Assembly: GCF_009796865.1 (NCBI RefSeq)
Contig: NZ_CP047028.1
Location: forward strand, 2,852,001 to 2,916,000
Origin: Formosa sp. L2A11
Lineage (GTDB): Bacteria; Bacteroidota; Bacteroidia; Flavobacteriales; Flavobacteriaceae
Direction: 5' to 3'
DNA length: 64,000 nt
Shown: positions 12,385-29,756 of the stretch, in pieces
Position numbering within the stretch: position 1 is the first letter of the stretch
Layout: each line of letters begins with the position of its first letter
Translations under genes and position numbers: made by a program
Notes under the pieces: model-generated
What the model was told of the DNA's origin: nothing
What the model saw: only the letters and a program-made list of their open reading frames with translations
Databases searched by the model: none

Positions 12385-12388
12385 TGTG

Positions 12389-13606
12389 ATGCAAGACAAG
12401 AAAAACCAATTTGAGTTTATAGCGTTAATGGCATCGCTAATGTCTATAGTATCTTTATCTATAGATGCTTTATTACCTGCTTTTCCTAGTATTGGTATCG
12501 CTGTTGGAAATGAAAACAGCAGAGATTTACAGTCTCTTGTTACCATGATTTTTTTAGGTTTTGGAATTGGCCAGTTAATTTTAGGACCGCTTTCTGATAG
12601 TTTTGGTAGAAAACCACTCATGTATATTGGGTTTGGAATTTTTATTATTGCAAGTCTAATTTGTGTAAGCGCAACCAGTTTAGAAGTTATGCTTATAGGA
12701 AGAGTGCTTCAAGGTATAGGGCTTTCTGCTCCAAGAACTATATGTATTTCTATTATTAGAGATTCTCACAAAGGAAATTATATGGCAAGAATGATGTCTT
12801 TTGTTACGGCATTTTTTATTCTTATTCCGGTTATTGCACCAGCATTAGGACAGTTTATTCTTAACTATTTTAATTGGGAATCTATTTTCTTTACACAACT
12901 CTTTTTTGCTATAGTTGTTAGCATTTGGTTTTGGAAACGACAACCGGAAACTTTACATCCAGAATTTAAAATACCTTTTAATAAGCATGTGTTTATAAAT
13001 GGATTTAGTGAATTAATTCGTTATAAAGAAGCCATGATTTTCACGGTGCTTTCTGGTTTTATTACAGGATCTTTTATGGTGTATTTAAGTTCTGCTCATC
13101 ATGTATTTATAGATCAGTACGAGGTTGGAGAAAATTTTCCATACGTCTTTGCTGGGCTCGCTATTTCTATTGGAATATCTACACTTTTAAATGGAACTTT
13201 AGTGGTCCGTTTTGGAATGCGAAGATTAGCTTTAGTTTCTTTAGCGGCTTTTAGTTTAATATCTACTATTTATGTGGGCTTATTTTGGAACACTCCAAAT
13301 CCAAGTTTATATGTATTGGTTCCGTTTTTAGCAGCACAATTTTTCACGTTAGGATTCTTGTTTGGAAACTTAAGAGCGATAGCTATGGAACCGATAGGAC
13401 ATATTGCAGGAATTGGAGCGGCTTTAACGGGCTTTGTATCTACTATTGTTGCTATTCCTATTGCTACATTTATTGGTGGTTTTATGACGGATACAGCTTT
13501 GCCTCTATTTGTTGGTTTTTCTATATGTGGTAGTGTTGGATTAATTACTTTTTTATACTTAAAACGACATAGGCTTTACCGAAAATTTAGTTTAAAACGG
13601 AGTTAG
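12389..13606 (+). CDS. Bcr/CflA-type multidrug MFS transporter
   Basis: About 405 residues with 12 membrane helices. The DALLPAFPSIG segment near residue 28 and the SDSFGRKPLMYIG loop near 68, followed by the GRVLQGIGLSAPR motif near 105, are typical of the Bcr/CflA drug:H+ antiporter group. I use the ATG at 12389; a GTG three bases earlier is in frame but less likely. It probably exports a small toxic compound across the inner membrane. The stop overlaps the structured element at 13606. Confidence 0.85.
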   Translation: MQDKKNQFEFIALMASLMSIVSLSIDALLPAFPSIGIAVGNENSRDLQSLVTMIFLGFGIGQLILGPLSDSFGRKPLMYIGFGIFIIASLICVSATSLEVMLIGRVLQGIGLSAPRTICISIIRDSHKGNYMARMMSFVTAFFILIPVIAPALGQFILNYFNWESIFFTQLFFAIVVSIWFWKRQPETLHPEFKIPFNKHVFINGFSELIRYKEAMIFTVLSGFITGSFMVYLSSAHHVFIDQYEVGENFPYVFAGLAISIGISTLLNGTLVVRFGMRRLALVSLAAFSLISTIYVGLFWNTPNPSLYVLVPFLAAQFFTLGFLFGNLRAIAMEPIGHIAGIGAALTGFVSTIVAIPIATFIGGFMTDTALPLFVGFSICGSVGLITFLYLKRHRLYRKFSLKRS

Positions 13607-13666
13607 GGATTGCAACGGCATCCTTTTTATGTTTTTCTCATAAAAAGATATAGTGGAAAGCCCGAC
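13606..13666 (+). ncRNA. structured flavobacterial intergenic element, copy 1
   Basis: Outer pairs GGG (13606-13608) and CCC (13661-13663) enclose a conserved GGCATCC and GATATAGTGGAAAG core and a perfect stem CTTTTTATG/CATAAAAAG. A near-identical core occurs on the minus strand at 29484-29548 with a compensating outer pair. A T6 tract and a small hairpin follow. It resembles a motif I remember as common in flavobacterial genomes, possibly the Flavo-1 RNA family, but this needs a covariance search. It begins at the stop codon of the MFS gene, so it may be a 3' UTR element. Confidence 0.5.
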
Positions 13667-13693
13667 TTTTTTCCTTAAAAAAGGAACTCACTA

Positions 13694-14326
13694 CTAAAAT
13701 TTAAGATGTGAAAGAATATCTACCACAGACGATATTATGTACTCAATCCCGATTGCAATAACTATAAAACCAATAATACGAGATAGTGCATTAATTCCAG
13801 ATGCTCCTAAAAATTTCACGATTAAATACGAACTTTTTAGAATAAGGTAAATACAAATGGTTGTGAAAACAAGTGCACCTATAATGATGAATTTATCTTG
13901 AATTTCTGAAAACTCCCGATTGTAGGTTATTAATAACGAAATGGTTCCTGGTCCCGCTAACATAGGCATGGCTAAGGGAGTTAAGCTAATTTCGTTTCGA
14001 GAATTAATATCTTCTTCTACGCGTTTACGCTTCATTCCTTTGTGTTCTGCAAATTTACCGGTTAACAAGGCGAAACCTGATGATGCAATAATAAGCCCAC
14101 CTGCAATTTTGAGTGCATTAATGCTTATTCCAAAAAAGGATAAGATATATTTTCCTGCAAAAAAAGATAAAAGTAATATTATAAATGCATTTACAGCTGT
14201 CCAAAAAGCAATAACAGCACGCTCTTTTTTAGTGTTTTCTGACGATAAACCTACAAATACTGGAACGGTACCTAAAGGATTCATAATTGAAAATAAAGCC
14301 CCGAAAGTGGATAAAAATAACTCCAT
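13694..14326 (-). CDS. MarC/UPF0056 family membrane protein
   Basis: A 210-residue protein with six predicted membrane helices. It starts with a FLSTFGALFSIMNPLGTVPVF-like first helix and has the PLAMPMLAGPGTIS motif near 117, both hallmarks of the MarC family. MarC proteins are inner-membrane proteins of unsettled function; the old link to antibiotic resistance is not supported. Monocistronic and convergent with the MFS gene. Confidence 0.88.
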   Translation of the reverse strand: MELFLSTFGALFSIMNPLGTVPVFVGLSSENTKKERAVIAFWTAVNAFIILLLSFFAGKYILSFFGISINALKIAGGLIIASSGFALLTGKFAEHKGMKRKRVEEDINSRNEISLTPLAMPMLAGPGTISLLITYNREFSEIQDKFIIIGALVFTTICIYLILKSSYLIVKFLGASGINALSRIIGFIVIAIGIEYIISSVVDILSHLKF

Positions 14327-27551: not shown

Positions 27552-29243
27552 TTAACGTACTAATTTTTTGTATTTGATACGTTTTGGCATTAAATCTCCA
27601 CCTAAACGTTTTTTCTTATTTTCTTCGTATTCACTAAAACTTCCTTCAAAGAAATATACTTGGCTATCTCCCTCAAAAGCTAATATATGCGTACAAATTC
27701 TATCTAAGAACCATCTGTCGTGACTAATTACCACGGCACAACCTGCAAAGTTTTCCAAACCTTCTTCTAATGCACGTAATGTATTTACATCCAAATCGTT
27801 AGTAGGTTCATCTAAAAGCAATACATTACCTTCTTCTTTTAACGTCATTGCTAAATGTAAACGGTTACGTTCACCCCCAGAAAGTAACTTTACCTTCTTA
27901 TTTTGTTCACCTCCAGAGAAGTTAAAACGACTTAAATAAGCTCTAGAATTTACTTCTTTTCCGCCCATTAAAACCAATTCTTGCTCGTCACTAAAGTTTT
28001 GCCAAATTGTTTTTTCAGGATCAATATTTGTATGACTCTGATCTACATAAGCGATTTTAGCAGTATCTCCAAGTTCAAAAGATCCTTTATCAGGTTCTTG
28101 CTCTCCCATAATCATTCTGAAAATGGTTGTTTTACCAGCACCATTGGGACCAATAATTCCAACAATTCCTGCTTGAGGTAAATTAAAGTTTAAATCTTCG
28201 TACAATAATTTATCATCAAAGCCTTTACTAATACCCTTAGCTTCAATAACATTAGTTCCTAAACGTGGTCCGTTAGGAATATAAATTTCTAATTTCTCGT
28301 CAAGTTGTTTTTGGTCTTGACTCATTAATTTATCGTAATTCTTTAAACGTGCCTTTTGTTTGGTTTGGCGTCCTTTTGCTCCTTGACGTACCCAATCTAA
28401 TTCACGTTCTAACGTTTTCTGGTGCTTAGAAGCTGTTTTGCTTTCTTGTGCCATACGTTTAGATTTTTGGTCTAACCAAGACGAGTAGTTCCCTTTCCAA
28501 GGAATACCTTCACCTCTATCTAATTCTAAAATCCAACCCGCAACATTATCTAAGAAATATCTATCGTGCGTTACTGCAATTACAGTTCCTTTATATTGTG
28601 CTAAATGATGCTCTAACCAATGCACAGATTCTGCATCTAAATGGTTGGTAGGCTCATCTAAAAGTAATACATCTGGTTCTTTTAAAAGTAAACGACAAAG
28701 CGCTACACGTCTGCGTTCCCCTCCAGAAAGTACACTTATTTTTTTATCACCTTCTGGAGTACGTAAAGCATCCATGGCAATTTCTAATTTGGTATCTAAC
28801 TCCCAAGCATTCGAAGCATCAATCTGATCTTGAAGTTCTGCCTGACGCGCCATTAACTTGTCCATTTTATCTGCATCAGAATACACTTCTTCCAACCCAA
28901 ACATGTCATTAATTTTATTGTACTCATCAAGAATAGCAACCGTTTCGGCAGCACCTTCACGTACAATTTCCATTACCGTTTTATCTGGATCTAGTTTTGG
29001 CTCTTGCTCTAAATACCCTACAGAATAATCTTGAAGAAATGTAACATCTCCTTGATAGTTTTTATCAAGACCTGCAACAATCTTTAATAAAGTAGATTTC
29101 CCAGAACCATTAAGACCTAAAATCCCAATTTTTGCTCCGTAAAAAAAACTTAAATAAATATTCTTTAAAACTGGTGTGTTAGCACCAGGAAATGTCTTGG
29201 TTAAACCAGACATTGAAAAAATAACTTTCTTATCGTCACTCAT
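27552..29243 (-). CDS. ettA: energy-dependent translational throttle protein EttA
   Basis: A 563-residue ABC-F protein, close to E. coli EttA (555). Two nucleotide-binding domains are present: Walker A GLNGSGKST near 42 and GPNGAGKTT near 352, signatures LSGGERRRVALCR near 172 and LSGGERNRLHLAM near 455. The arm and P-tip linker lie in between, around 240-320. EttA binds the ribosomal E site and gates the first translation steps according to ATP level. It is 2 bp downstream of the small membrane gene, so co-transcribed. Confidence 0.93.
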   Translation of the reverse strand: MSDDKKVIFSMSGLTKTFPGANTPVLKNIYLSFFYGAKIGILGLNGSGKSTLLKIVAGLDKNYQGDVTFLQDYSVGYLEQEPKLDPDKTVMEIVREGAAETVAILDEYNKINDMFGLEEVYSDADKMDKLMARQAELQDQIDASNAWELDTKLEIAMDALRTPEGDKKISVLSGGERRRVALCRLLLKEPDVLLLDEPTNHLDAESVHWLEHHLAQYKGTVIAVTHDRYFLDNVAGWILELDRGEGIPWKGNYSSWLDQKSKRMAQESKTASKHQKTLERELDWVRQGAKGRQTKQKARLKNYDKLMSQDQKQLDEKLEIYIPNGPRLGTNVIEAKGISKGFDDKLLYEDLNFNLPQAGIVGIIGPNGAGKTTIFRMIMGEQEPDKGSFELGDTAKIAYVDQSHTNIDPEKTIWQNFSDEQELVLMGGKEVNSRAYLSRFNFSGGEQNKKVKLLSGGERNRLHLAMTLKEEGNVLLLDEPTNDLDVNTLRALEEGLENFAGCAVVISHDRWFLDRICTHILAFEGDSQVYFFEGSFSEYEENKKKRLGGDLMPKRIKYKKLVR

Positions 29244-29245
29244 AA

Positions 29246-29428
29246 TTATACTCTCCCTTTTAATGCATTAAATACCCAAGCAATAGCAAAAAAACCAATT
29301 CCTACAGCAGCAAATCCATAACCTGCTACATCGTTATATCTAAAAGCACCAAGTGCAATTAAACCTAATCCTACTACAATCATAATGGTTGTTGCCCAAG
29401 CTAAAACCGTATTCTTATTCATTGCCAT
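29246..29428 (-). CDS. CAL67264-family small membrane protein
   Basis: A 60-residue protein with two membrane helices (about 8-27 and 33-54) and a basic C-terminus. It matches a small flavobacterial membrane family I know as CAL67264. Function unknown. It lies directly before ettA on the same strand with 2 bp between. Either Met1 or Met3 could be the start. Confidence 0.8.
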   Translation of the reverse strand: MAMNKNTVLAWATTIMIVVGLGLIALGAFRYNDVAGYGFAAVGIGFFAIAWVFNALKGRV

Positions 29429-29483
29429 AATTTGTAAATCTTATTTTAGTGCGCATCATCTTTAGCAAAAAAAAGCTAAACAT

Positions 29484-29548
29484 GTCAGGCTATCCGTTAT
29501 ATCTTTTTTTAATTGTTACCAATAAAAAAAGGATGCCACTTCTATCCT
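29484..29548 (-). ncRNA. structured flavobacterial intergenic element, copy 2
   Basis: Read on the minus strand it shares AGGAT, GGCATCC, AAAAAGATATA and GGATAGCCTGAC with copy 1 at 13606-13666. The outer pair G-C of copy 1 is A-T here, a compensatory change. The variable arm remains paired: eight T/A-rich pairs plus ATTG/CAAT. A T8 tract inside a TTTAGC/GCTAAA hairpin follows. It lies 56 bp upstream of the CAL67264-ettA operon, so it may be a leader element or a separate RNA. Confidence 0.5.
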
Positions 29549-29756
29549 TTGCGCGTATTTAAATACAAATATCGCATTTTTAGTAGTAATTATAAATATT
29601 TTGCATTAACAATGTTGTTTAAATTGTGTTATTAAATCAATATCTTATGATTAAAATGATAATTAAGTCATTTATTACAATTAAATCCCTGCTAAAATGT
29701 ATTAAAATTATAAACTGATAGTCTTTTTCTAAAACGCGTTTAAATTCATCCAAAAA

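Follow-up and report, generated by a model that had tools for sequence, protein, structure and literature searches.

Flavo-1 in a Formosa genome: a dispersed, junction-forming intergenic repeat that may act as DNA

Structure of Flavo-1 at the locus

Within a 64,000-nucleotide stretch of the Formosa sp. L2A11 genome (the window, analysed over its whole length), we identified two copies of Flavo-1, a family to which Rfam (RF01705) gives the type Gene; sRNA. Copy 1 (13585-13671, plus strand) matches RF01705 at 60.2 bits, against a gathering score of 42, and scores 79.3 bits with R1, a model built from 33 rows that exclude both window copies and include L093, an ortholog of copy 1. It lies between a Bcr/CflA-family MFS transporter gene (12386-13606, plus strand; NCBIfam TIGR00710, 207 bits, cut-off 201), the 3' end of which falls inside the element, and a convergent MarC/NAAT-family gene (13694-14326, minus strand; PF01914 and TIGR00427), whose product is 92% identical to that of Formosa species, the nearest named relatives. 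The second copy that the preliminary description had placed on the other strand was confirmed by a minus-strand RF01705 match over the gathering score (29479-29564; 58.9 bits, and 73.5 bits with R1). Its full extent, 29451-29554, follows from the pairing in the sequence of an outer stem, P1, formed by GCGCA (29554-29550) with TGCGC (29455-29451). About 51 bp downstream of copy 2 is a conserved 60-aa ORF (29246-29428, minus strand), found in the same place in all six Formosa genomes compared, followed by the gene for the ABC-F protein EttA (27552-29243, minus strand; TIGR03719, 910 bits).

The suspected kinship with Flavo-1 was borne out by covariance search. Both copies exceed the Rfam score across the whole 76-position model and are therefore not chance matches, and the block originally marked is a genuine Flavo-1 copy. 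The GGCATCC motif alone is uninformative, as it has four matches in the window where shuffled sequence averages 2.25. Homologues covary very strongly: in the 33-sequence alignment 99.4% of cells are paired, and the covariation of 0.567 compares with 0.167 in shuffles and at most 0.098 with slid partners.

The 61-nt block of the preliminary description is a genuine core, but the paired element of copy 1 is larger, extending in full from 13600 to 13689. The letters of the core are as described: GGG (13606-13608) pairs with CCC (13661-13663), GGCATCC and GATATA lie at 13617-13623 and 13647-13652, a perfect AT-rich stem joins 13624-13631 to 13639-13646, and the GGG begins at 13606, the last base of the MFS stop codon (TAG, 13604-13606). 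The T6 tract said to end the block does exist (13667-13672), but it falls just beyond that end and is not a feature of the family. Surrounding the core, the best DNA fold has an outer stem P1 with its 5' arm, GAGTT (13600-13604), overlapping the MFS stop codon and its 3' arm, AACTC (13685-13689), matched by variants in relatives. A P2 arm (13606-13663) comprises helix H1 (GGG/CCC), an A.G mismatch, the loops GCA/GGA and GGC/ATA and the AT-rich apical stem. It is followed by a side hairpin P3 (13666-13683; 13666-13672 with 13677-13683), the 5' arm of which contains the T6 tract and which also appears at shared sites.

The same architecture, a three-way junction of P1, the P2 arm and a P3 hairpin between core and P1, characterizes the family. 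Among the 131 of 134 collected copies that could be parsed (three were unfit for the parser and left out), 1309 of 1332 cells in the four core helices are Watson-Crick, with 12 G.T and 4 A.C, and the helix letters vary freely (H1.1: GC 69, CG 39, AT 21; H1.2: GC 67, CG 42, TA 13; H2.2: TA 79, AT 42, GC 8). Conversely, the unpaired positions are nearly invariant, with the A.G mismatch between helices fixed in 129 of 131 copies, the first inter-helix loop nearly always GNA/GNA, and the second GGC/AYA or GRA/GNA. Two types of closing were identified. In type A (40 copies) the element is closed by AGC/GCT, the GCT being present in 39 of 40. In type B, the five bases before the core are perfectly complemented downstream in 87 of 107 copies, and in 36 of the 51 with a P1 other than the commonest GCGTT, in a count from which 4 of the 20 viral copies were omitted and in which some others were misread; as a control, the P1 of another copy found its complement in 94 of 2140 trials. 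There are 14 different P1 sequences (one or two possibly misread), and even at the MFS site the window copy has GAGTT/AACTC where G005 and L105 have GCGTT/AACGC. P3 occupies the same place at other shared sites, and at that of the source genome's copy at 524874 it was seen by eye to be rewritten in several species with its pairing retained. Compared with RF01705 (Weinberg et al. 2010, PMC2864571, in the part concerning Flavo-1), the core and mismatch pattern are alike, whereas P1 and P3 are absent from the Rfam model, and the two closing types and the plasmid and phage copies are additions of the present study.

Fixed sites in Formosa and distribution beyond it

The source genome holds 12 Flavo-1 copies, 11 of which are among the 14 sites that at least two of six Formosa genomes have in common, as grouped by flanking proteins. 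The site of copy 2 is occupied in all six genomes. The element stands behind the MFS gene in four, one of them with a different downstream neighbour, and G003 and G004 have the MFS and MarC neighbours with no recognisable element. Orthologous cores are on average 0.92 identical (129 pairs), compared with 0.63 and 0.66 for the adjacent flanks, and paralogous cores 0.79, compared with about 0.50, when the copy beside the tmRNA gene and one G001 copy are merged by hand into a site. That orthologous cores are far more identical than their flanks at shared sites indicates that the copies have been kept. Within sites, pairs changed 7 times by double changes that keep the pair, 8 times by single changes to G.T and 8 times by changes that break it, which points to copies inherited in place under selection for the fold, with ordinary single-step changes as well. 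Judged by these comparisons, the Formosa copies are old and fixed, and their fold is under selection.

The twelfth copy closely precedes the tmRNA gene; at this locus (L009) it spans 1501-1581 and ends about 30 bp before the tmRNA (1610-2003), where the tmRNA promoter would be. At another site common to Formosa (L012, L201, L202, L204 and L206) the apical loop is longer by about 60-80 bases, and in both G001 and G004 the site has a pair of copies about 2.7 kb apart. We also considered a bias toward one replication strand: GC skew in 20 sampled 20-kb stretches placed the origin at about 1.05 Mb and the terminus at about 3.1 Mb, and the ten copies on the origin-terminus arm, five plus and five minus, showed none.

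Beyond Formosa, Flavo-1 was found in 32 of 59 genomes of relatives and, in a sample of the family Flavobacteriaceae, in 188 of 299 genomes, 176 of them over the cut-off. Copies per genome in the family range from 0 to at least 126, and the two high-copy genomes have at least 126 and at least 75 among the 150 candidates scored in each. Plasmids carry it as well: of 21 Bacteroidota records matched by BLAST, three were tested and all three have a copy (65.4, 53.7 and 53.7 bits), two of them Myroides plasmids with Flavo-1 neighbours in common. The genes beside chromosomal copies are varied: no neighbour family was enriched among 103 flanking proteins, and the commonest among the first 25 of 190 families, Radical_SAM, had three matches. 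At one locus (L350), a full copy is preceded in tandem, about 100 bp upstream and in sense, by what appears to be the 3' half of another unit.

Flavo-1 is indifferent to gene direction. Relative to their neighbours, copies in Formosa are oriented ++ 23, -- 20, +- 13 and -+ 11 times, and those outside Formosa ++ 14, -- 32, +- 11 and -+ 5 times, the latter with an excess of antisense over sense placement (32 against 14; binomial p 0.011). Across all copies, with ORFs called by length only and Formosa copies not independent, the median distances to stop codons are 41 and 47 bases compared with 116.5 and 125 to start codons. Placement behind stop codons thus holds for the Formosa-dominated data as a whole, but nearly vanishes outside Formosa (80 and 58 bases to stops, 73 and 91 to starts). 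These distances bear on a reading of Flavo-1 as an RNA element borne on mRNA, in which whichever strand is transcribed would form a hairpin of about 100 nt that blocks exonucleases, directs processing or adjusts read-through between genes. The nearness of stops and the selection of the fold at fixed sites favour this reading, which we consider possible but on balance doubtful, given that the stop preference is nearly lost outside Formosa and that the mismatches are fixed on one strand only while orientation is free.

Folding as DNA or RNA, and likeness to known repeats

With DNA energies, copy 1 folds best as the complete junction (z -2.78, a value reached by 1 of 200 shuffles), while RNA energies give a different best fold (z -1.39; antisense RNA -1.01). 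For the 114 of the 131 parsed copies that have a short apical part, the fraction of consensus core pairs recovered was 0.50 for sense DNA, 0.43 for sense RNA, 0.38 for antisense RNA and 0.16 for antisense DNA, with mean z of -2.70, -1.82, -1.94 and -2.27, respectively. In these models the fixed mismatches make DNA prefer one strand, an effect that nearly disappears with RNA energies. Since a control of 29 TPP riboswitch sequences also scored lower with DNA (-1.03) than with RNA energies (-0.71), the preference for DNA as such is modest and only the contrast between strands is telling. The small difference between antisense and sense RNA is in turn what an mRNA-borne element of either orientation might show. 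G.U pairs are scarce (5 of 526 cells, whereas TPP has 21 among at most 609; p 0.005), which is suggestive only as a sign of DNA; an argument from this scarcity to DNA is weakened by the within-site counts, in which single changes to G.T (8) are as frequent as double changes (7).

The promoter-like TAnnTTTG occurs in the upstream 60 nt of 16 of 134 copies, about double the 7.6 that shuffled sequences give on average, and this excess, together with the Rfam label, speaks for a stand-alone small RNA; the motif is nevertheless missing from the other 118 copies, and 108 have no T5 or longer in the 50 nt beyond the element (26 of 134 have one; shuffled mean 16.2). An intrinsic terminator, with the P2 arm as a stem followed by T6, would fit copy 1 but not the family as a whole. 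In the part of a Flavobacterium psychrophilum transcript mapping that concerns Flavo-1, matches lie sense or antisense to transcribed regions indistinctly and many fall outside them, while several coincide with 5' transcribed regions (PMC9723704); the former observations tell against both a stand-alone and an mRNA-borne RNA. Considering also a copy number that runs from 0 to at least 126, Flavo-1 is probably not a stand-alone small RNA, a reading to which we attach little credence. The preliminary description left open whether the pattern reflects a mobile repeat or a functional RNA. The dispersed repeat is upheld by copy number and by the plasmid and phage copies, whereas the RNA is less well supported in view of the disregard for gene direction, the few promoter-like motifs and the F. 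psychrophilum mapping.

As a dispersed intergenic imperfect palindrome with many copies, Flavo-1 resembles the GTAG-tagged REP elements associated with RAYT, which are likewise high in copy in some genomes (PMC3733652). It differs from them in its larger size, its three-way junction and the lack of a GTAG tag in the consensus and of an adjoining Y1 transposase at 20 loci. CGTC-tagged REPs are palindromic too and, in the account given of them there, apparently without a dedicated transposase (PMC3733652), but Flavo-1 is much longer and has fixed purine mismatches, and the R1 consensus has neither GTAG nor CGTC at an end. We also searched for a mobilising gene. The source genome has one degenerate Y1 match, and Y1 matches occur more often where Flavo-1 is present (18 of 32 genomes) than where it is absent (5 of 27; Fisher p 0.004), an excess that is confounded by relatedness and genome size (14 of 27 against 2 of 9 within the source's own family; p 0.24). 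Fourteen of the 32 Flavo-1 genomes have no Y1 match, including G008, G010 and G021 with 23, 13 and 21 copies, and at 20 Y1 loci examined, out of about 46, no copy lies within 1.5 kb. Were Flavo-1 a true REP element, spread by a RAYT that is now gone or works from another place, its palindromic, dispersed, high-copy character and the Y1 excess would be accounted for; with the Y1 loci standing apart and the GTAG tag missing, however, this reading appears improbable. Flavo-1 works like a REP element but is not filed as one, since two defining features, the tag and, at the loci examined, the adjacent RAYT, are absent.

Two other repeats invite comparison. ERIC repeats are imperfect palindromes of roughly 100-130 bp that lie between genes in either orientation and are not known to have a transposase; Flavo-1 is alike in size, palindrome and orientation, a likeness by description between elements of different hosts. 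Integron attC sites fold as single-strand hairpins in which certain unpaired bases are conserved and the apical part varies, all of which Flavo-1 has in common, and end in RYYYAAC...GTTRRRY. Identity with attC was rejected, as type B of Flavo-1 ends in GTT...AAC, the reverse of the attC order, and its P1 letters vary.

Taken together, the evidence fits a scattered, self-folding DNA repeat somewhat better than an RNA. Our leading reading, held with about even confidence, is that both window copies represent a palindromic DNA element, dispersed and REP-like, that formerly spread and now serves as a strand-specific hairpin site. It is supported by the range of copy number, the plasmid and viral copies, the occurrence in both orientations, the freely varying paired helices with fixed mismatches, the DNA fold of the sense strand and the kept orthologous cores. 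Against it stand the lack of a linked mobilising gene, the absence of any fresh insertion or base-resolution empty site among genomes compared at one per species, the stable positions in Formosa, the TPP control, G.T changes as common as double changes (as RNA allows) and the excess of promoter-like motifs. We propose that the sense strand, when single during replication, in a transcription bubble or in a cruciform, would fold into the three-way junction, presenting the conserved purine mismatches (A.G, GNA/GNA, GGC/AYA) in its P2 arm, and that a protein probably reads these mismatches and the junction rather than the letters of the stems. This protein or another enzyme may have spread the element through the intergenic spaces of chromosomes, plasmids and phages, as copy number and distribution suggest; it was probably once mobile and is now retained at fixed sites, where its likely role would be that of a strand-specific DNA hairpin site between genes.

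A 2022 review discusses Flavo-1 with other annotated small RNAs of the highest abundance, with no function given where it is mentioned (PMC9029176), and we found none in open-access papers. Should Flavo-1 be a DNA element, its annotations as a small RNA would be wrong in kind. A question that dates from the first description of the family in 2010 becomes testable at the bench through the full junction, its preference for one strand, the sites shared among genomes and a link to phage terL genes.

Copies behind phage terL genes

Three pattern scans of viral contigs yielded 21 loci, of which 18 were confirmed (9 by Rfam and 9 by R1) and three, L334, L336 and L337, were dropped for want of a model match. 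Collapsing two pairs with identical TerL left 16 distinct copies, nine of which (L324, L325, L327, L328, L330, L338, L341, L342 and L344) lie 9-24 bp behind terL in antisense orientation. In a tenth, L335, the stop codon of a TerL relative is 0.8 kb from the element; L340 is truncated where its stretch ends, and the copies of L326, L332, L333, L339 and L343 are placed elsewhere. L332 is probably bacterial rather than viral, since its neighbours are those of a Formosa chromosomal site. Phages of Microcystis, Porphyromonas and Bacteroides have relatives of these TerL proteins that bear the annotation terminase or terminase large subunit, and one member of the family matches phrog_2. Starting instead from TerL, the element was found in 13 of the 80 closest loci, a lower bound because some of the 67 contigs without a match end right behind terL; in 12 of the 13, which amount to 9 distinct elements, it lies 6-43 bp behind terL, again antisense. 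A similar arrangement was seen on a Sphingobacterium plasmid (L432), where the element (1493-1586) follows a recombinase-family gene by about 20 bp, antisense.

The place behind terL is thus favoured, yet many phages of the group lack the element. None of eight phage records with a related TerL (seven annotated) has a significant model match, the best being Leef_1 (E 0.046), over the terL stop and on the same strand, and BLAST of named phage records with two elements, a weak test, gave nothing convincing. In Ingeline_1 and Leef_1 the record stops 132 and 83 bp past terL, respectively, and the Leef ends are predicted to be 3' cos (PMC8776804). These ends and the recurrent position behind terL would suit a site of phage origin, connected with DNA packaging or with the ends of the genome, from which the chromosomal copies descend; in view of the 67 TerL loci and eight phage records without a match, we regard such an origin as very improbable. 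Related phages that are free of Flavo-1 have, by eye, other hairpins behind terL, an observation in favour of the mRNA-borne element.

Returning to the reading as a DNA hairpin site, we tentatively extend it, in a form we consider unlikely to hold in full, to a strand-specific single-stranded DNA hairpin site common to Bacteroidota chromosomes, plasmids and the 3' end of terL in one group of phages, a further sort of REP-like element that forms a three-way junction but is without a linked transposase. In this case a Bacteroidota protein would read the A.G and GNA/GNA mismatches, and phages might keep a copy behind terL because it acts on their replication or packaging. A second hairpin, GGCTACCTTTTC...GAAAAGGTAG, is common to two phage contigs that carry Flavo-1, L324 (near 4128) and L408 (near 3689), a few hundred bp beyond the element.
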